From contig JANWWI010000025.1 of the NCBI GenBank assembly GCA_025056355.1, forward strand, positions 1 to 37,674: a stretch of 37,674 nucleotides of DNA, in the 5' to 3' direction. The stretch is from Casimicrobiaceae bacterium (GTDB lineage Bacteria; Pseudomonadota; Gammaproteobacteria; Burkholderiales; Casimicrobiaceae). The notes below the pieces were generated by a model. That model saw only the letters and a program-made list of their open reading frames with translations. It had not been told where the DNA came from and made no database searches. Shown here piece by piece: positions 8,946 to 37,674 of the stretch. A program made the position numbers and the translations under genes. How positions within the stretch are numbered: position 1 is the stretch's first letter; each line of letters begins with the position of its first letter.

Positions 8946-9992
<1,047 letters not shown>

Positions 9993-10009
9993 AGCAATGG
10001 AGGGCCGCG

Positions 10010-10720
10010 ATGAAGCGCTCGCACCGGCTTCAGATCGCCAATCCAAGACAGGCGAGTTTGCCGCTGTTTGCGCCGAACGATGCAAACATCTCGGGACCGT
10101 CTGGGCGTACCATCGAAGCCAAGCGTTGCAGCGAGGCAAACGCATCCATGGCCCGTAGCAGCAGTCCACGAGCACCGCGACCGGCGCGGGAGATCCGCTT
10201 GCGCGAACGTGCGTTGTCACTTCTTGCCCGCCGGGAATACTCGCGCGAGGAACTCTATGCCAAGCTCGCACAGGCCCGCGCCCGGGGCGCAAAAAGTGGC
10301 GAGAGCTTCGAGTCCAGGCGCAGCGAGCGCGATGCCGACATCGCCCACGTTGTGGAAGAACTCGCGCGGCAAGGCTGGCAATCCGATGAGCGCTACGCCG
10401 AAGCGATCGTGCGACGCCTCGCCGCGCAAGCCAGTCGACGCTACATCGAGCACAAACTGGCCGAGGCGGGCATTTCAAAGACGCTCGCGCAGGCGGCCCT
10501 CGCCCAACTAGACACCGATGAACGTGAAGTCGCGCGGGCACTTTGGCAACGCCGGTTCGGAAGCCCGCCTCGCGATGAACGCGAACGACAGCGTCAAATC
10601 CGCTTCTTGCTCGCACGCGGCTTCCATCTCGCCGATGCCTTCCGAATCGTCCCCAAACCCGCAGGCTCGGCCGCCGAAGCGCACGCGGAGGAGACCTATC
10701 TGCCACAGCCCCCCGAGTAG
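10010..10720 (+). CDS. recX: Regulatory protein RecX
   Basis: A 236-residue RecX, longer than the usual ~150 because of an N-terminal extension of about 60 residues rich in Arg/Ser/Pro. The RecX helical repeats start at LRERALSLLARREYSREEL and include RDADIAHVVEELARQGWQSDERYAEAIVRR, RRYIEHKLAEAGIS and the RFLLARGFHLADAFRIV end. RecX caps or inhibits RecA filaments. The start at 10010 follows GGAGG (9999-10003) by six bases; a TTG at 9989 overlapping recA is less likely, and 10148 is an alternative that removes the extension. It ends in TAG, 17 bases behind recA in the same operon. Confidence 0.92.
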   Translation: MKRSHRLQIANPRQASLPLFAPNDANISGPSGRTIEAKRCSEANASMARSSSPRAPRPAREIRLRERALSLLARREYSREELYAKLAQARARGAKSGESFESRRSERDADIAHVVEELARQGWQSDERYAEAIVRRLAAQASRRYIEHKLAEAGISKTLAQAALAQLDTDEREVARALWQRRFGSPPRDERERQRQIRFLLARGFHLADAFRIVPKPAGSAAEAHAEETYLPQPPE

Positions 10721-17061: not shown

Positions 17062-18713
17062 CCACCGCCACCGTGGAACCCACGCTGCTCATCGAAGACT
17101 TAACAGTCGCGTTGCCGCCCGGGGCCGATCGCACCTTCGCCGTCGAAGGCGTGCGTTTTGACGTGCGTGCCGGCGAAATCGTGTGTCTGCTCGGCGAGTC
17201 CGGTTCGGGCAAATCAATGATTGCCTACGCGATCACGGGACTGCTGCCCGAGGGTGTCAAGGCCGTCGGCGGACGCATCCTGCTCGGCACCGAAAACCTT
17301 CTTGCACTCGATGCCGAAGCGTTGCGCGAGCGGCGCGGACGGGACATCACGATGATCTTCCAGGAACCGATGACCGCGCTCAATCCGGTCATGACCTGCG
17401 GCGCGCAAGTCGATGAATTGCTCGCAGCGCACAGCAGGCTGGATGCCACGGCCCGGAAGGCGCGCACGCTTGAGTTGTTTGAACGCGTCCGGCTGCCCGA
17501 GCCTGAGCGGATCTATGCGAGTTACCCGCACCAGCTCTCCGGTGGACAACGCCAGCGCATCATGATTGCGATGGCGCTTGCCCTCCAGCCCAAGCTCGTG
17601 ATCGCCGATGAGCCGACCACAGCGCTCGACGTCACGACGCAAGCCGAGGTACTCGCGTTGATTCGGGCCCTTCAGCGCGAGCACGGCACGGCCGTGCTCT
17701 TCATTACGCACGACATGGGGGTGGTTGCCGAGATTGCCGACCGTGTGGTCGTCCTCGAACGCGGCCGCATCGTCGAAGCGGGCGACAAGGCCCAGGTGCT
17801 CCAGCACCCGCGCGAACCCTATACGCGCATGCTGATCGCCGCGGTGCCCTCAATGGATCCTCCGGATCGGCCGGCCCGCGCGCGGGGTGAGCCCGTCTTG
17901 CGCGTAGAAAAGCTCGGCAAAGTCTACGTGAGCGGCGGTTGGCTGCGCAAAAAGCGCGTCACGGATGCCGCGCGAAACGTCACTTTCGAGCTCAGGCGCG
18001 GCGAAACGCTCGGCATCGTTGGCGAATCGGGGTCCGGCAAAAGCACGGTCGCCCGAGCGATCACGCGGCTCATCGAACCGAGCGCGGGAGCGATCTGGCT
18101 CGGCAACGAGCGCCTCGATGGGGGCGATCGCGCACAGCTCAGGCGCTTGCGCAAGCGCATCCAAATCGTCTTTCAGGACCCGTATCGATCGCTGGATCCA
18201 CGCCAGCGCGTGGGCGAGGCGATCATCGAGGGCCCGATGAACTTCGGTGTCTCGCGACGCGAAGCCTGGGCACGCGCCGAACGACTGATGGAACTTGTCC
18301 GGCTCGATCCGGCCGCGCTCATGCGCTACCCGAACCAGTTCTCGGGTGGACAACGGCAGCGCTTGTCAATCGCGCGGGCCCTGGCGCTTGAGCCCGAGGT
18401 GCTCATCTGCGATGAGGCTGTCTCGGCCCTGGATGTCTCGGTGCAGGCGCAGGTGCTTGAACTGCTCTCCGACATCCAGCGACGGCTCGACCTCGCCATC
18501 CTCTTTATCACCCACGATCTGCGCGTGGCGGCCCAGATCTGTGACCGTCTCTTGGTCATGTCGCGTGGCGACGTGGTCGAGGCCGGTCGCACGGCCGAGG
18601 TATTCCGCAACCCCAAACACCCCTACACTCGGCAACTGCTCGCAAGCGCTCCCGGGAGGGACTTTACCTTCGCTCGAGTTGAAAGGCCTGCGAGCGTGAC
18701 GGTGGGCACTTGA
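17058..18713 (+). CDS. Fused double ATPase of a peptide-type ABC importer (DppD-DppF / GsiA, YejF type)
   Basis: A 551-residue protein with two complete ABC domains. Domain 1: Walker A GESGSGKS (46-53), Q-loop [13 protein letters not shown], signature LSGGQRQRI, Walker [13 protein letters not shown]-loop THDMG. Domain 2 (from about 275): [46 protein letters not shown]. Each domain is followed by an oligopeptide-type C-terminal segment ([19 protein letters not shown] and [14 protein letters not shown]). Both sites look catalytically competent. The two permeases overlap upstream, so this makes a full importer except for a binding protein. The stop overlaps the sigma factor start (TGATG). Confidence 0.95.
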
Positions 18714-19321
18714 TGTGCCGGACTGACGCAACACCGATGAACCCGACGCCAACGCTTCTCGTTCAGCGCGCCGCACAGGGTGATGTCGAAGCCATGCGCG
18801 CGCTTTTTGCGACCCTCTACCCCGATATCAAGCGTCTGGCGCGCTCGCGCCTTGCCCAGGCCGGTGGCGTCACGGGTCTCAACGCCACCGCGCTCGTCCA
18901 TGAAGGGTTTTTGCGCATGGCTGAGCGCGAAGGGCTCGAGGGGCAAACCCGCCTCCAATTTCTCGCCTACGTCGGCAAAGTGCTGCGCTCGATCGTCATC
19001 GACTACGTCCGAAGCCGCGACGCCGAAAAGCGCGGCGGCGGGGTGACGCTGCTCACTTTGACCGCGGCCGACGGGGTGCCGGCGCCGTGGATGGATGTCG
19101 AGGATCTCGTGGCCTTCGACGAAGCGCTCGAACGCTTACGCGAGCTTGACGAGCGGCTCTATCAGGTCGTCGAATTGCACGTCTTCTCGGGGCTCACCCT
19201 GTCCGAAGTCGCCTCCGAAATCGGTGTCAACCTGCGTACCGTGAACCGCGACCTGCTCAAAGCACGCACACTGCTTGCGCGACTGCTTGGGCACGGGCAA
19301 GACCAAGCCAAGGAGCGCTAG
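18713..19321 (+). CDS. ECF sigma factor, kinase-associated (ECF43-like) group
   Basis: A 202-residue sigma-70-family regulator. Region 2 runs from VQRAAQGDVEAMRALFATLYPDIKRLA through FLAYVGKVLRSIVIDYVRSRDAEKR; region 4 from LDERLYQVVELHVFSGLTLSEVASEIGVNLRTVNRDL. In region 2.2 the usual acidic DAEDLVQE is replaced by NATALVHE with Thr at 18887-18889. This is the pattern of the ECF group that pairs with Ser/Thr kinases, in which phosphorylation restores the missing negative charge (as reported for EcfP/PknT of Vibrio). A kinase gene follows 38 bases later. The ATG at 18713 overlaps the ATPase stop; 18737 is an alternative start. Ends in TAG. Confidence 0.88.
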   Translation: MCRTDATPMNPTPTLLVQRAAQGDVEAMRALFATLYPDIKRLARSRLAQAGGVTGLNATALVHEGFLRMAEREGLEGQTRLQFLAYVGKVLRSIVIDYVRSRDAEKRGGGVTLLTLTAADGVPAPWMDVEDLVAFDEALERLRELDERLYQVVELHVFSGLTLSEVASEIGVNLRTVNRDLLKARTLLARLLGHGQDQAKER

Positions 19322-29402: not shown

Positions 29403-31517
29403 ATGCGCGAATTGACGCGCAATTTCCCGGTGTCGAAACGTTCGTCGCGACCTTTTGTTCAGAAAGTGTTGGTCACAGTTGGTCTCGGCATGGCGTCACT
29501 TGCCTCCATGCCGGAGACGGTCGCGTTGACCCTTGGCCCCGAAACGGTGGAATCCGCTCTTGGGCAACCTTTGCGTGCGAGCTTTCGAGTTCGTGGCTTG
29601 ACCGATGCGATCACCGATGCGAGTTGCCTTCGGCTCGGCAACGCCTCGGCGAGCGACGGACTGCCACAGATTTCTCAAGCCAGCATCTCCCTTGAACGTC
29701 GCGGTGGGAGTGAAGGCACGATCGTCGTTCGTACGCTGCGGCCCATCAACGACCCAGTGGTCCGCATCACCCTCGTGTCGAACTGCGGCGCCGCCTCGCG
29801 ACGCGAATATGTTTTGCTGCTCGACCCACCGGTCACGACGGATCCTGCCTTCTCAGCTCCCGCGGTCGCGCAGGCGCCTCCGCCGTCTGAGCCGCTCGCG
29901 CCAACCGCCTCGACATTGCCTCGCGGTGAATCGGCGCTGACGGTCCAGCCAGGTCTCGCGAGAGATCTTCCGTCTCGGACGGCCGACCAAGCAATCACAG
30001 CGGCACGCCCACGTGATGCACAACGCCAAGGTCGCGCGGTGGCGCCGAGAAGCGCTGCTCGTTTGACCTCCGGGGGCGAGGCAGCTCCTCGCGGGTCGGG
30101 CACGCCCAGCCGCATCGCCGAGCAGCCAAGCGCTCCCCCGCCGCGCTCCGAACCCAGCGAGCGACTGCGAATCGACCCTCCCGCCGCCCTTGGGACGAGC
30201 ATCGATGAGTTGGCACTGGCTGCCCTTGCGGTTCCGCGACTTCGCCTCACCCCAGAACTCGCCTTCGATGCAAATACGGGCACGCCCATCCTTCTGCAGG
30301 GATCCTCAGCCATCGCGAACGATCCACTACAGAAGGCAATCGCCGAAGCACGGCGGAATCGCTTGCGCGAGGCCCCGCTTGAGCAAGATCTCGAACCCCG
30401 TCTCGAAGCCGAACTCGTTGTCGCGAAGCGACGCATTGAAGAATTGCAAGCACAGCTGGGCGTTCAGTCGGGAGCCACCAAACTCGGCTCTGGCGCACAA
30501 CCCTCTCCCATCGGCCTCGTAGCGCTTCTTCAGCCGTGGTTGCCGTGGCTTTTTGGAGCGCTCGGGCTGGGCGTGCTGATCGCCGCAGCGCTTCTGATGC
30601 GCCGGCGGCGTGCGGCAGCGGCCGCGGCATTCGAACTGGCCGCACGGGATTTACCGAACGGCCCGCCGATCCGGGCTTCGGCGACGACGCAAGCAGCCAG
30701 CCCTGCGCCGCCGCCGAGCCCGGCAGCCGCTCTCGAGCAGTTAGTCGACAACACGCCTACCGAGCTTGAGCAACCCCTCACCGCGTCGCCCTCCGCGAAC
30801 GCTGCCTCCACCTCGGAGCTGCGCCTCGTCGAAGCCGACGCGCAGCTAACGACGATCGCACCGGAGGCGGCTCCCGTCGCTTCGACCCGAGCAAGCTATC
30901 AGGCGCCGTCGAGTGACGTCGACGTTCAGGAGCTCTCCCAAGTCACCGAAGAAGCCGAAGTCTACGTAGAGCTCGGTCGGATCGACCAAGCGATTGCACT
31001 GCTCAAGTCACATGTGGATGCACACCACGGTGCTCGGCCCTCGCCCGCGCCGTGGCTGATGCTCATCGATCTGTACCGACGCACCGGTAATCGGGCCGCC
31101 TACGACGAACTCGCGCCGCGGTTCCAGCAGCGATTCAATGGTCGCCTTCCGAGTTGGGAGAACTACGGCCAGGAGCTCGCGCTCGACGACGGACTCGAAG
31201 CTTTTCCGCATCTGATCGCTCGCATTTCGCGCGACTGGGGCACCCAGCGGGCGCGCGAGCTTCTCGATGAGCTTCTCTACGACAATCGGGGTGGTTCGAG
31301 GCTTGGCTTTAGCCTTGCGGCCTACCGAGACATTTTGTTGCTCGTCCAAATCCATGACCTGATCGCGAACCAACTCGGTGGCCTGCGTCCGGCCGAAGAC
31401 CTCGCCGCGGCCAATCCAGACGACGGCACGCCCAAGTGGACGCTCGACCTTGAAACGGTCGAAAGCGGCCTTGATTCTCCCGTCAAGGACTGGCTCAACC
31501 GTCAACGTCCGCAGTAG
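29403..31517 (+). CDS. FimV-like membrane protein
   Basis: A 704-residue protein with FimV layout. An N-terminal signal/anchor segment (about 18-40) is followed by the FimV N-terminal domain (LTLGPETVESALGQPLRASFRV). A long Pro/Ser/Ala-rich periplasmic part follows, then a TM helix (PWLPWLFGALGLGVLIAAALLMRRRRA, about 370-400). The C-terminus is acidic, with a TPR-like FimV motif (EEAEVYVELGRIDQAIALLKSHV, WLMLIDLYRRTGNRAAYDELAPRF). FimV helps assemble polar machinery such as type IV pili and, in Pseudomonas, cyclic-AMP signalling. A LysM module, frequent in FimV, is not visible. Ends in TAG. Confidence 0.8.
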   Translation: MRELTRNFPVSKRSSRPFVQKVLVTVGLGMASLASMPETVALTLGPETVESALGQPLRASFRVRGLTDAITDASCLRLGNASASDGLPQISQASISLERRGGSEGTIVVRTLRPINDPVVRITLVSNCGAASRREYVLLLDPPVTTDPAFSAPAVAQAPPPSEPLAPTASTLPRGESALTVQPGLARDLPSRTADQAITAARPRDAQRQGRAVAPRSAARLTSGGEAAPRGSGTPSRIAEQPSAPPPRSEPSERLRIDPPAALGTSIDELALAALAVPRLRLTPELAFDANTGTPILLQGSSAIANDPLQKAIAEARRNRLREAPLEQDLEPRLEAELVVAKRRIEELQAQLGVQSGATKLGSGAQPSPIGLVALLQPWLPWLFGALGLGVLIAAALLMRRRRAAAAAAFELAARDLPNGPPIRASATTQAASPAPPPSPAAALEQLVDNTPTELEQPLTASPSANAASTSELRLVEADAQLTTIAPEAAPVASTRASYQAPSSDVDVQELSQVTEEAEVYVELGRIDQAIALLKSHVDAHHGARPSPAPWLMLIDLYRRTGNRAAYDELAPRFQQRFNGRLPSWENYGQELALDDGLEAFPHLIARISRDWGTQRARELLDELLYDNRGGSRLGFSLAAYRDILLLVQIHDLIANQLGGLRPAEDLAAANPDDGTPKWTLDLETVESGLDSPVKDWLNRQRPQ

Positions 31518-31691: not shown

Positions 31692-32444
31692 TTACTCTAG
31701 GCGCATCACGAACGGAATTTCGACTTCCGAGGCGACGTCCGACTTTTCGGTTCGGCATGCGCTGCTGGTGAGCGGCCCCGCGAAAGTGCGCTGCACAACG
31801 TTGCGCATGCCCGGAGGGCTCACCTCCTTGACGCGGACATTCGTAAAGGTTCCGTCCGGGTTGAGCGTGACGAGCACCGTGCCCTCGATCCGGTCGACGC
31901 CCGCACGGTTCATTTCGCGAACCGGCGGAGAATCGGGTCGGCATGCCTGAGGCAGCGAACCGAGTGTGAGTCGACTCGGAGCGGCCTTGGGTGGTGGCGG
32001 CGGCGGGGGCGGTGGTGGTGGTGGCGGCGGCGCGGGAGGCGCGGGAGGCGCCGGCGGTGCGGGTGGAACAGGCGGTGTGATCTTGTACTCCGTCTTTGGC
32101 GGTTCTGGCGAGGGCGCAACCGTGATTGCCGGCGCCGGTGGCGCTTGAACGACAGGCACTTCGACCGGCGGCACGTACGGTGGCGGGGGCGCAGTCGGCG
32201 GGGGCGGCGGCAGATTCGGCTGCCTCGGCGGCGGCGGTGGTGGCGGCGGAGGCGGCGGAGGCGGTGGCGGAGGTGGTTTGACCTCCTCGAGAATTTTGGC
32301 TTCGAGCGGCTTTTTGATGACCTCGATCGCTTTCTTCCCGAGCCCGGTGATCAAGGCATACACAATCAGCGCATGCAGCCCCAAAACGACCAGCACCGCG
32401 ATCGTGCGCCGGCTGCCACCGCCCGGGTTATAGGTGTAATCCAT
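31692..32444 (-). CDS. tonB: Energy transducer TonB
   Basis: A 250-residue TonB. One N-terminal TM helix (about 14-35: TIAVLVVLGLHALIVYALITGL), a Pro-rich spacer (about 50-150) with two runs of 13 or more Pro, and a C-terminal TonB domain (about 155-250) with VREMNRAGVDRIEGTVLVTLNPDGTF and EIPFVMRLE. It carries proton-motive energy from ExbB/ExbD to outer-membrane receptors. Long CCN runs (GGC/GGT on the plus strand at about 31989-32053 and 32166-32280) could be prone to slippage. It is the last gene of the run; the start is 15 bases after exbD. Confidence 0.95.
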   Translation of the reverse strand: MDYTYNPGGGSRRTIAVLVVLGLHALIVYALITGLGKKAIEVIKKPLEAKILEEVKPPPPPPPPPPPPPPPPPRQPNLPPPPPTAPPPPYVPPVEVPVVQAPPAPAITVAPSPEPPKTEYKITPPVPPAPPAPPAPPAPPPPPPPPPPPPPPKAAPSRLTLGSLPQACRPDSPPVREMNRAGVDRIEGTVLVTLNPDGTFTNVRVKEVSPPGMRNVVQRTFAGPLTSSACRTEKSDVASEVEIPFVMRLE

Positions 32445-32459
32445 GACCGGTCGCCGTCT

Positions 32460-32885
32460 TTAGAGGAACTGCTCGTGACCCAAGATGCCCATCTTGACAA
32501 GGCCTAAGCGCTGCGAGCTCGCCATCACGAATGCGACGACCCCGTAATTGGCGTTCTTGTCCGGCCGAATGTGCACTTCGGGCTGGACCTCTTTCTTTGA
32601 TGCGGCGCTCAGACGCGCAACCAACGTGTCTCGATCGGCCAGCAACTCGCCGTTCCAATAAATACGGCTTTGCGCGTCGATGTCGATCTTGATCACTTCC
32701 GGTTCGACCGGTGGCTTGACCACGTTCGGCGGCGGCATGTTCATGTTGATCGAATGCAACTGCACGGGGATCGTGACAATCAGCATGATCAACAGCACCA
32801 ACATCACGTCGATCAGTGGAGTGGTGTTCATCTCCACCATCGGCTCTGGTTCCCGGCCAGAAGAGGAGCCTACCGACATCCCCAT
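32460..32885 (-). CDS. exbD: Biopolymer transport protein ExbD (copy 2)
   Basis: A 141-residue ExbD/TolR-type protein: N-terminal tail, one TM helix (PLIDVMLVLLIMLIVTIPVQLHS) with the essential Asp of the LIDVML motif, and a periplasmic domain (EVIKIDIDAQSRIYWNGELL, EVHIRPDKNANYG). It lacks the LxE(G)F variations that would mark TolR and is ten bases after the first exbD. It acts with ExbB as the proton-driven stator for TonB. Confidence 0.94.
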   Translation of the reverse strand: MGMSVGSSSGREPEPMVEMNTTPLIDVMLVLLIMLIVTIPVQLHSINMNMPPPNVVKPPVEPEVIKIDIDAQSRIYWNGELLADRDTLVARLSAASKKEVQPEVHIRPDKNANYGVVAFVMASSQRLGLVKMGILGHEQFL

Positions 32886-32894
32886 ATCGCCTCC

Positions 32895-33323
32895 TCACTG
32901 CCCCTTGGCTGGCGGTTCGGTCAAAAACGCGACTTTCTGGATGCCGGCTTGCCGGACCGCGAGCACCACGGGTCCGATGCCGCTCCAGGCACCATTGAGA
33001 TCCCCTCGAATGTGCACCTCGGGCGGATCCTTCATCACTGCGAACTTCTTGAGCCGTTCGGTCAGGTCACGCTGATCGCGAATCGGTGTATCCCACATGA
33101 AGATCTGACCTTGCCGTGATACCGAAATGATGATGTTTTCAGGACGGGATTCGCGCACTTGAATCTCTTCCTTCGGCAGATCGACCTTGACCGACGTCGT
33201 GACCACGGGGATGGTGATCAAAAAAATAATGAGCAGCACGAGCATCACATCCACAAGGGGCGTGGTGTTGATCGCGCTGTTCATCTCATCATCGCCGTCG
33301 GCCGGCCCGACATTCATTCCCAT
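32895..33323 (-). CDS. exbD: Biopolymer transport protein ExbD (copy 1)
   Basis: A 142-residue ExbD: TM helix TPLVDVMLVLLIIFLITIPVV with the essential Asp, then periplasmic KVDLPKEEIQVRESRPENIIISVSRQGQIF and DPPEVHIRGDLNG. The two ExbD copies share the MGMxVG start and the NTTPLxDVMLVLLI stretch, so they are tandem paralogues. Their periplasmic domains have diverged more. It follows exbB by about 80 bases. Confidence 0.94.
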   Translation of the reverse strand: MGMNVGPADGDDEMNSAINTTPLVDVMLVLLIIFLITIPVVTTSVKVDLPKEEIQVRESRPENIIISVSRQGQIFMWDTPIRDQRDLTERLKKFAVMKDPPEVHIRGDLNGAWSGIGPVVLAVRQAGIQKVAFLTEPPAKGQ

Positions 33324-33405
33324 GAGGCACCTCTTGTGAAGTCAGGAGAGCCGGGCAGCTCAGCTTGTGGCCACCTGCCCGTTCGATGGGGGCTTGGGCA
33401 CGCCG

Positions 33406-34269
33406 TCAGCGTTTTGCCGCCGACGCGATGAGCACCGAGTGCAAATCGGAGCCAAAACCGCGTACCTTCTCCATGGTGATTTTGTTCTTGCGCACGATGT
33501 AGTTGTACGCAAGCACGGCCGGCACAGCGACCGCCAAGCCGATCGCGGTCATGATAAGCGCCTCGCCCACAGGCCCCGCGACCTTGTCGATCGAGGCTTG
33601 GCCGGACACACCAATCTTGACCAGCGCGTGGTAGATGCCCCAGACCGTCCCGAACAAGCCAACGAACGGCGCGGTCGAGCCCACCGAGGCCAAAAACGCA
33701 AGTCCATTTTGGAGATTGCTCTGCACGGCGTCGACCGCACGTTGGATCGATTGAGTCACCCAGTCCGAAAAGCTGATCTGTCCGAGCAGCCCTTCATGCT
33801 TTTTTGTGGCCTCGAGTCCCGCTTCGGCGATAAAGCGGAATGGGCTGTGCTCTTTGAGCATCGACAGCCCTTGATTCAAATCGGACGCGCTCCAGAAATC
33901 GCGCTCGACTTGCTTGGCTTGCCGGGCAATCTTGTTGAGCTCGATGAGTTTGGCCACGAGGATGTACCACGTTCCAATCGACATGAATACCAAGATCAGC
34001 AAGGTGGCCTTCGCTACCCAGTCAGACTGCTCCCAGAGTGCCTTCAATCCGTACGGGTTCTCAACCGTTTCCGTCGTGGTCGCAGGTTTGACCGCCGGTT
34101 TAGGGGCTTCAGCGGTCGTCGGTGCGGCGGTGCCCGCGGGCGCGGGAGCGGCGGGAGTCGCCGTGGGGCTCGGAGCGCCCGTTGGCGCCTGAGCCAGAGC
34201 GGTCAACGGTGCGCCTGCGACACTCAAGCACATCGCGGCTGCCATAACAGGGGCAAAGATGCGGTTCAT
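33406..34269 (-). CDS. exbB: MotA/TolQ/ExbB-family proton channel protein
   Basis: A 287-residue ExbB-type protein. An N-terminal signal-like segment (MNRIFAPVMAAAMCLSVAGAPLTALAQ) is followed by a Pro/Ala/Thr-rich periplasmic stretch (about 28-75) and three TM helices. The family segment is VGSTAPFVGLFGTVWGIYHALVKIG, with AVPAVLAYNYIVRKNKI behind. With the two ExbD copies and TonB it forms the energising complex of the inner membrane. It is separated from the receptor gene by a strong terminator, so it is probably expressed from its own promoter in 34270-34425; two TTGACC hexamers lie there but no clear -10. Confidence 0.94.
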   Translation of the reverse strand: MNRIFAPVMAAAMCLSVAGAPLTALAQAPTGAPSPTATPAAPAPAGTAAPTTAEAPKPAVKPATTTETVENPYGLKALWEQSDWVAKATLLILVFMSIGTWYILVAKLIELNKIARQAKQVERDFWSASDLNQGLSMLKEHSPFRFIAEAGLEATKKHEGLLGQISFSDWVTQSIQRAVDAVQSNLQNGLAFLASVGSTAPFVGLFGTVWGIYHALVKIGVSGQASIDKVAGPVGEALIMTAIGLAVAVPAVLAYNYIVRKNKITMEKVRGFGSDLHSVLIASAAKR

Positions 34270-34425
34270 GGAGGAGTCTGCGTGGTCGAGTTGATCGATG
34301 ATACGGGGTACGTAACTTCTCTAACTTGCGTTCGTCCGGGTAGGCCTCACGCAAAAGATCTTAGTGTATCGCTGCGCGGTCAATTTCTTACAGCAGCTTG
34401 CCAACCGGCCCGTTGAATCGGTCAA

Positions 34426-34460
34426 GGCAAAAACAAAAGGCGCACCTCGGGGTGCGCCTT
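34426..34460 (-). terminator. Intrinsic terminator after the TonB-dependent receptor
   Basis: AAGGCGCACC-TCGG-GGTGCGCCTT is a perfect 10-bp stem (34437-34460); on the minus strand it is followed by the T-rich tail TTTTGTTTTTG. It lies about 40 bases past the final stop of the receptor gene. Confidence 0.85.
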
Positions 34461-34497
34461 GGTTGAGGGAAGGGCGCGAGCCGCACCTCTCGGCGCG

Positions 34498-37350
34498 CTA
34501 TCGGAATCTGTAGGTCAGGTTGATATAGCCAAACCGCCCGCGCGGATCAACATACGTCGGATCGTAGCCTGCCTAAAACGCTCCCCCGTTGCCGTTGACA
34601 TAGGGCGGATTACGGTCTAGCAAGTTCTTGACGCCGACTGTGACGGTGAGATCGCGGACGCCGGTGTACCTAATTTGTGCGTCCCAGATTTCGTAGCTAC
34701 CGCGCCGCGGGCGCACATCATCGGTGCACTCATCGACGAGGTTGCCGCAAACGTCCGTGAAGCGCGACTGCCAGTTGTACGCAAGCGTCCCCTCCCATGG
34801 ACCGCGGTTGTAGGTCAGCTCGGCGCGATAACGCAAGCGCGGTAGGAACCCGAACGTCGAGTTTGACGTCAGTCCGATGCTGCTCGAAAAGCTCCCGTCC
34901 TCGTTCTGGGTTGCCCACTGCTGGAGATACGTTCCGATGAAACGCGTCGTCCATTTGGCCCCAAGCGCGTCGAAACGACCGAGCAAGTCGAAATCGAAGC
35001 CCTTGATCTTTGTGCGTCCAAAATTCTCCAGGCGTGTGTCGATCACGAGGATGGAGCCCGGGAGTCCAGGAATGTCTGAGGTCGCCTCCCTGATGACTCG
35101 CCTGGAATACAGGGCTTCATTCGCAAGTAAGAAAGATGCGCTCGGGCTGCCAATGATGTCCTTGACGTCGATTTGGAAGTAATCGAGAGTCAGGCTGACG
35201 TCGCGGATCGGCTCAAAGATAGCCCCCAATGTGATGCTCTGCGAGCGCTCAGGCTTGAGTCGTGAGTTACCGCCGTAGAACGTGTTGAACTGTGTCGCGC
35301 AATCATTCGGGTTGTTGGCGTTTGCTCCGCGACAACGCGCAGGATCACTGAGCGGTTCAGTAACGCCCGTGTTCAGGGGGTTGTAGAGCTCGAGGAGTGA
35401 CGGTGCCCTAAATCCCGTAGCCCATGTGGCGCGGGCGCTCAGCTGAGGTGTCACTGCGTACTTCAGACCGACTTTGCCGGTGAGGCGCTGGAAGCTGCTT
35501 GCGCTGCCTGTCAACTCCGGCGAGTTTGCCAGCTGGTTCGCAATCGCCCGCGGGACGTCAAGCGCAATCAAGGTGTCCACCGCAGTTTGCACGTCGTTGG
35601 GATTATTCGAACGCGCATAGCGATCGAACCGCAAGGCCAGCGTCGCCTCCGACTTCGCAAACGGTTGTGTTGAAAGCTCAGCAAAGGCTGCTTGAACGTC
35701 GCGCTTGGCCGCAATCGGCTGAAAGTTGCCGCCGTAGCCCGAGATATCGCCACCCCGTAGCGCTTCACTCGAGGCTAGATCAAACTTTTCCTGACGGTAC
35801 TCGCCGCCGAGCGCAACCGAGACGGGTCCGGCCCCGAAGCGAGCAAATTCACGACTAGCGACCGCGTTGAGGGAGGTCAGCGACGTCTTGGCTTTGAACG
35901 CTTCTCCAACAAAGTTTGTTGCCCGCGCCTGCGCAACGATTTCAGGTGAGGTTGGGCCGAACGGGTTGACAAGCCCCGTTGCAAGCAATGGCACGATGCC
36001 GGGGCCTGTCGGGTCGCCAGGGCGGCCAGTTGCCGGATTGATGCCGTTGTTGCCGTAGATACGGAAATATCCGCCGTTGAGAAACTCCGAAACTTTGCTC
36101 GTCGAATGCAGCAGATAGGTGTTGATGTCCCACCCCGCCCAGACACCCTGCGCGCCCGCGACTAGGCGTGTGTTTTCAGCGCGGTCCGTCAAATCACGAT
36201 TGCCTGTGATGAAGGGGCGATAACGGATTCGCAAGTCCGGCGTCCGCCCGCCGGTGATCGATCGGACGAAATCCGTGGGATAAAACGGACTGGTGGGCTT
36301 GAGCGTGAAAGGAATACCGAACGCGGAATCAATCGGCGAGGGTTGAATCACCACGTTCACGCGCTTGCGCGAGAAGCTGCCTTCGAGATAGCCCTCCCAG
36401 TCGCTGCCGAGCGCAAACCGTGCGTTCGCCGAAAGCCCTGCCTGCTCCATGGTCGGAATGAGGGTGACAAACGGCGCCGTATCGAACCAGCAGATGGTTC
36501 GGCTGAATTCGGGAATAAAGAAGGTGCTGTTTTCGGGACTGCACTGGGGCACGGTCGGGTTGTAGGTGCCACCGGGGCCGCCGATGAAGTTGAAGTTGGC
36601 CGGGAAGGTACGGCTCGAGCCTGCAAAGTTCGACTCTGGGATGTTGATACCGCTTCGCGCAAACTCGCGATCCCGGCCAAAAAGCGAACCGAACTTGGAG
36701 TAGCTACCCACGACCGAGATGTTGTAACGATCTCGCGCAAGGTTGCCGAAACCGGCCGCCGCACTCACCCGAGTCACATCCCCCTTGCCATCTGCAAGCG
36801 CCGCCCCGTAACTGGCCGACACCTCAGCGCCTTGAAAATCTTTGCGCAGAATGATGTTGACCACGCCTGCGATCGCATCCGAGCCGTAAATTGCCGAAGC
36901 GCCGTCTTTGAGCACCTCAATGCGCTCGATCGCAGCCAGTGGAATGGCGTCGATATCCACCGAGACGGAATCGGTGGGAGCGCCGTAGGGCGCTAAACGG
37001 CGTCCGTTGATCAAAACAAGCGTGCGGTTCGACGAGAGTCCACGCAGCGATACCGTGGAAATCGATCCGGTCGTGGCGCCCGAAGATGATGCGACAGAAA
37101 CCGAGCCCGAGCTCGTCGTGGCCGAAATCACACGAATGAGCTCCTCGATCGAAGTGGCCCCAGAGCGCTCGATATCCTGCCGGGTCAAGACCTATACCGG
37201 CGCCGCCGTCTCGGAATCGATCCGCTTGATGTTCGTTCCCGTCACCTCGACTTTCTCAACGCGCTGCTGCGCAAAAGCGCCGCTAGCCAGAACAACCGCG
37301 CCGAGGGCAAGACCGACTGCCACTGCGACTTGCTTACGCTTGTGGATCAT
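34498..37350 (-). pseudogene. TonB-dependent receptor, interrupted by two in-frame amber codons
   Basis: A 950-codon outer-membrane receptor frame. It starts at ATG 37350 behind AGGAGG and ends at TAG 34500-34498. Signal peptide 1-28 (ending SGAFA), TonB box VEKVEVTG (31-38), plug domain (SIEELIRVIS, VDIDAIPLAAIERIEVLKDGA, IYGSDAIAGVVNIIL) and beta-barrel to a C-terminal ITLTYRF-type end (YINLTYRFR). Codons 53 (37194-37192) and 926 (34575-34573) are TAG, where relatives have Gln (PVQVLTRQDIE; FQAGYDP). Between them 872 codons are open. Without suppression, translation stops after 52 codons, and the ORF from the TTG at 37188 lacks a signal peptide. The ligand is unknown. Confidence 0.85.
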
Positions 37351-37674
37351 GCTTTCCTCCTTCAGGCTCTGTTTTCTATCGATGCTTCGGATTTTGCAGA
37401 GTTTTTCTTTTTTCGGCGCAAAGGAATTCCCCCTGCAGAGTCCCGCCGAGCCAGACGTTGCACCAGGACAACACCCCTTGCCGCGCCTCAGCCTGCGGTA
37501 TGCGCGTTCCGCTCCTGTTCGCAAGTCTCGACAAACTCTGGTTGGTTAATGGGCTCGCCGCCCCTCGCATGAGCGCCAAGCGGTTATCCTTCCCTAAGGA
37601 AGGTCTGCACAACGTCCGTGAACTGCGGGATTTGTTGATGCTCTTGGGTAGACGTAGGTTTTTGTGCGCCCGGA
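37351..37674. other. Upstream region of the receptor gene to the window edge
   Basis: Holds the receptor's ribosome site (AGGAGG, about 37355-37360) and an A/T-rich run on the minus strand (37398-37418) that may be part of its promoter. A 6-bp hairpin CCTTCC-CTAA-GGAAGG lies at about 37588-37603. An ATG at 37569 opens a 35-codon plus-strand frame that runs off the edge (begins MSAKRLSFPKEG); it has no visible ribosome site and I cannot call it a gene. Confidence 0.4.

Follow-up and report, generated by a model that had tools for sequence, protein, structure and literature searches.

Genes for TonB-dependent receptors encode a Plug domain (PF07715) and a beta-barrel domain (PF00593), and the receptor gene analyzed here encodes both of them in the usual order, each far above the Pfam cut-offs. 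Unlike TonB-dependent receptors generally, it also contains two in-frame TAG codons. Among the routes by which bacterial genes become pseudogenes, a review describes point mutation, premature stop codons, frameshift and failed horizontal transfer (PMC11078800). Bacterial pseudogenes of the premature-stop kind likewise have premature stops in a gene that is still recognizable, and the sole difference at this locus is the chance that both stops are amber. The 'pseudo-pseudogenes' of Salmonella (Feng et al., 2022, NAR) would be the appropriate model if the broken frame yields a low-level product.

The other group of described systems comprises phages in which TAG has been recoded, many of which read TAG as Gln. 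In phage phAss-1, TAG occurs within 41 ORFs (PMC10607447). Such phages and the present locus share TAG codons inside frames; here, however, a single bacterial gene is concerned, and TAG terminates it too. A literature search joining the terms TonB-dependent receptor, pseudogene, amber and readthrough found no paper.

The receptor gene and its in-frame TAG codons

The window, that is, the whole stretch of 37,674 nucleotides that was analyzed, is one entire contig (C88) of the draft genome of a Casimicrobiaceae bacterium, which consists of 170 contigs and 2.62 Mb (2,621,133 bases) and is listed as 98% complete. On the minus strand, the receptor gene runs from the ATG at 37350 to 34498, a frame of 951 codons including the final TAG (34498–34500), and 324 bases of the contig lie upstream of this ATG. 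Stops are located only at codons 53 (37192–37194), 926 (34573–34575) and 951, each of them TAG, and neither a frameshift nor a TAA or TGA codon occurs across the 951 codons. A ribosome-binding-site-like AGGAGG, read in the sequence (37356–37361, minus strand), lies 5 bases 5′ of the ATG, and the N-terminus, judged by eye, resembles a signal peptide of approximately 27 residues (37270–37350). When the full frame was scanned with both internal TAG codons written as X, Pfam matched the Plug domain to residues 46–163 (36862–37215; E 1.3e-24) and the TonB-dependent receptor barrel to residues 370–910 (34621–36243; E 1.9e-44). The preliminary description of this DNA, which had reported a plug and a barrel in a frame interrupted by nothing but TAG 53 and TAG 926, was accurate on these points. 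The cut-off was reached by none of the best 25 of the 26 NCBIfam models matched by the open 871-residue piece.

The first TAG falls early in the Plug domain and precedes most of the plug and the entire barrel, so that the conserved domains are truncated. The residues that would be lost if TAG 926 acted alone, 926–950, correspond in the alignment to the C-terminus of the homologs, which often reads ..F-K, ..F-R or ..F. Because the frame extends over about 950 codons with just two internal stops, and homology flanks each stop, the locus is, as judged from its sequence, certainly a genuine gene. Directly 3′ of it is a terminator-like hairpin of 10 pairs with a T-rich tail (34437–34460, minus strand), the stem of which is the longest among the four such hairpins that a scan found in the window, where shuffling gave an expectation of 3.6. 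A promoter scan found nothing.

Residues and mutations at the two sites

Fifty-five homologs were aligned, and the five with 840 residues or fewer were excluded from the site counts and from the test of conserved columns, leaving 50 near-full-length proteins. The closest homolog found, L114, comes from a genome of another family in the same order (G440) and is 53% identical (495 of 932 columns); a closer one may exist, because the order search that yielded this genome covered 399 genomes from a larger group, with at most two candidates scored in the genomes listed. L114 has Gln at both sites, encoded by CAA at 53 and by CAG at 926. The preliminary description had expected Gln at both sites and had suggested alignment to related receptors as a check; the expectation holds for this homolog and is weaker across the family. 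At site 53, the 50 homologs have Q in 24 cases and T in 20, followed by V (2), E (2), I (1) and S (1). At site 926, 29 have Q, four have a gap and 17 have other residues (I 5, T 4, N 3, A 2, and L, S and D 1 each). Over all 55 homologs, site 53 has Q in 25 and T in 23, and site 926 has Q in 29 and a gap in nine. Gln would therefore be the best guess at 53 and 926, yet it is required at neither, and some doubt attaches to the ancestral codon at site 53, since L114 has CAA there and Thr is nearly as frequent as Gln in the family. In a search of 17 genomes of the genus, including its own, the receptor gene matched itself alone at E ≤ 1e-80, and scanning of the contigs of named genomes gave two relatives only, one in Roseateles koreensis (32%) and one weak, so that no ortholog close enough for a dN/dS estimate emerged.

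A single in-frame TAG, at codon 507 of a frame that is otherwise open, was also observed in a related receptor, L002, from a genome of another genus (G028). No other among the 55 homologs is interrupted by a stop within the stretch that matches best; stops beyond that stretch were taken as frame ends and not counted. The alignment column of the L002 TAG is variable, with Q and K in 13 rows each, A in 7, R in 6 and others besides, and it is neither site 53 nor site 926; for these reasons this TAG is best regarded as unrelated to the two considered here, and it was rejected as support for the decoding of TAG as Gln.

In the receptor gene as it stands, 54 single transitions create stops, 18 of them by converting CAG to TAG. 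If sites 53 and 926 are restored as former CAG, 20 of 56 nonsense transitions are of this type, and the probability that two fall at CAG is approximately 0.13, a value that counts transitions only, ignores transversions and frameshifts, and assumes that both sites were CAG. It is thus not improbable that the two stops should both be of the CAG-to-TAG type. Conservation in at least 85% of 51 rows defines 113 columns, of which the receptor departs at 6 and L114 at 7 (range over the rows, 0–35), and a young dead gene would match a live one in this respect. The GC3 of the gene is 0.697, which ranks 93rd among 417 long frames (mean, 0.732). Because the conserved-column departures and GC3 are both ordinary, nothing points to prolonged neutral drift, in agreement with the earlier claim that neither frameshift nor decay is found between the two TAG codons. 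Free decay is expected to produce frameshifts too, so that two disabling hits of the same kind are mildly unusual. The absence of frameshifts would accordingly be mildly unusual for a long decay, and it fits a recent event.

Decoding of TAG in the genome

The genome contains an open frame of 366 codons for an RF1-type protein that looks intact: it has GGQ and P-x-T, which we take to be RF1 motifs, and its score against TIGR00019 is 535 bits (cut-off, 423). The search for an amber-suppressor tRNA that the preliminary description had proposed gave no anticodon CTA among the 38 tRNA loci found in the genome, 37 of which were named by ARAGORN; the remaining match is severed by a contig end, and its anticodon was read by eye as GGG (Pro). 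The sole tRNA-Gln among the 38 loci has the anticodon TTG. Because Ile-GAT and Ala-TGC are absent from the tRNA matches of the draft, the set is incomplete and a CTA tRNA gene may have been missed.

Stop codons were surveyed in 40 stretches (the window and 39 others) that together cover 801,849 of the 2,621,133 bases, or 31% of the genome. After exclusion of the 11 of 417 long frames that have no stop inside their stretch, 406 non-overlapping long frames remained, which are open frames of unchecked gene status; they end with TGA (254), TAG (82) or TAA (70), the TAG 926 of the receptor being among the 82. In a smaller sample, TAG terminates 52 of 248 long frames. In the window itself, TAG ends the genes for which this had been reported before, at 9989–10720, 18710–19321 and 29403–31517; the names recX and FimV given to two of them have Pfam support, and ECF is the name used in the preliminary description.

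In the same 801,849 bases, 59 stops are bridged in the same frame by coding-like sequence (38 TGA, 12 TAA and 9 TAG), without an excess of TAG; the TAG bridges alone were checked by Pfam, and the 50 TGA and TAA bridges were counted only. TAG 926 of the receptor is one of the nine, and TAG 53 was missed by the survey. None of the eight TAG bridges outside the receptor has the same Pfam family on both sides. Six have unlike families (MreC/MreD, enolase/DivIC, ABC ATPase/sigma-54, Band 7/DUF2065, ABC ATPase/Sbt_1 and epimerase/lysine-decarboxylase-like), whereas in the remaining two a family was matched on just one side: none/TPR, and MCP signal/none. For the second of these pairs (L079), the scan covered the last 400 of 734 codons upstream and the first 300 of 1956 codons downstream. 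Because no family occurs on both sides, these eight look like neighbouring genes. The survey recovers 1302 of 2085 mock stops (62%), an optimistic rate because the mock stops were placed within training genes; it may miss single cases, and a general recoding would hardly have been missed. A first survey of 437,674 bases, which gave 34 bridges including 5 TAG, was superseded by this larger one with looser cut-offs. All 12 of the receptor-barrel matches listed for the genome are free of internal stops, a count that is blind to frame ends, because the receptor gene is itself among the 12 and its TAG codons lie beyond the matched part.

Genome-wide reassignment of TAG, which had been considered unlikely from the outset, is rejected, because RF1 is present, TAG is an ordinary stop that ends 82 of the 406 long frames, and no further TAG-bridged gene was recognized in the 31% of the genome surveyed. 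With regard to the two readings originally offered for the receptor, a young pseudogene fits the tests, and amber suppression as Gln is not supported.

Origin of the receptor and the competing explanations

Downstream of the receptor, on the same strand, is a cluster of genes comprising an exbB-like gene of the MotA/TolQ/ExbB family (33406–34269) and two exbD-like genes (32895–33323 and 32460–32885), all assigned by Pfam, and a probable tonB (31692–32444). The last encodes 250 amino acids with a membrane-anchor-like N-terminus and is Pro-rich; it had zero Pfam matches at E 0.001 and is named from its place and appearance only. Relatives of exbB were found at E ≤ 1e-60 in 16 of the 17 genus genomes including its own (15 of the 16 others). 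A distant exbB relative in one genus genome (G006:C502:514-1278) has one in-frame TGA.

In another genome, G009, the cluster is highly similar, with identities of 91% for exbB (residues 63–287), 87% and 84% for the exbD genes and 73% for the probable tonB at the matching place, and the FimV-like gene is 75% identical over residues 494–700. The receptor adjoining exbB in G009 is just 31% identical, against 73–91% for the neighbours over their matched parts. The receptor slot beside the conserved exbB-exbD-exbD-tonB-like cluster thus looks swapped between the window (31692–37350) and G009 (L119, 1–15000). Relatives of the exbB, exbD and tonB-like genes of the window were not found in the 19 kb around L114, whose own neighbours include another receptor and a protein, different from these, that has a TonB C-terminal domain. 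In addition, the GC3 of the open part of the receptor is 0.698, compared with 0.774–0.803 in four other receptor-like frames from sampled stretches of its own genome. The swapped slot, the unlike surroundings of L114 and the lower GC3 together suggest an accessory receptor, which would differ in origin from its neighbours and would be of a kind readily lost.

Recent inactivation of such an accessory receptor in the sequenced lineage or strain is probably the explanation of the two TAG codons. It is better by far than amber suppression, and its main rival is an artefact of consensus or assembly, in which the gene is intact in the cells and one or both TAG codons reflect read errors, low coverage or mixed strains. 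An artefact would agree with the fragmentation of the draft into 170 contigs, with the contig end just 324 bases upstream of the ATG and with a receptor gene that is otherwise without decay, but it would require nonsense errors to have arisen separately at two positions of one gene that are 2.6 kb apart. Moreover, among the nine TAG bridges in 801,849 bases no other TAG-split gene was recognized (splits by TGA or TAA being counted only), so that such errors do not look general; we consider an artefact unlikely, while giving it appreciable weight. The four own-genome frames sampled are 29–45% identical to the receptor, three of them over short stretches, and no other protein match of its own genome exceeds 46% among the matches listed. 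These values argue against the idea that the broken gene is a silent donor copy, a cassette recombining with other receptor genes, because sequences so unlike would be unsuited to ordinary recombination. The G009 locus, with three receptor matches over its first 15 kb, and the end of the window just upstream of the receptor gene would be in keeping with such a cassette, the probability of which is nevertheless slight.

Reading of amber as Gln, or as another residue, at useful levels would make receptor output dependent on readthrough. The Gln residues of L114 at both sites, the intact remainder of the frame and the occurrence of one in-frame TAG in L002, too, are compatible with this proposal, whereas the presence of RF1, the termination of 82 of 406 long frames by TAG, the lack of a CTA tRNA among 38 loci and of a TAG excess among the bridges, and the position of the L002 TAG at a variable column away from sites 53 and 926 make it very improbable. 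Serial readthrough at two stops would also multiply two low yields. A related proposal, for which we see hardly any chance, is a low-output or conditional receptor that is 'nearly off', in which ordinary tRNA-Gln(UUG) would read through both ambers as a hedge against phage or siderophore-piracy pressure. If readthrough were true, the locus would be a rare instance of receptor dosing by stop codons.

The combination of release factor, tRNA set, stop usage and bridged-stop survey provides a template for testing amber recoding in a draft genome. Mainly, however, the locus is a caution: two ambers at expected Gln sites look striking, yet the outcome is near chance once a gene with approximately 20 CAG codons has been broken by transitions. 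Under recent inactivation, TAG would be an ordinary stop in the cell, read by RF1, and the premature TAG 53 would end translation soon after the signal peptide to leave a stub of 52 residues. Insertion into the outer membrane normally needs the C-terminal end of the barrel, and TAG 926 alone would strip residues 926–950, which include that end. The alleles would then be real in the cells and recent, and a functional receptor would not be made by this accessory gene.
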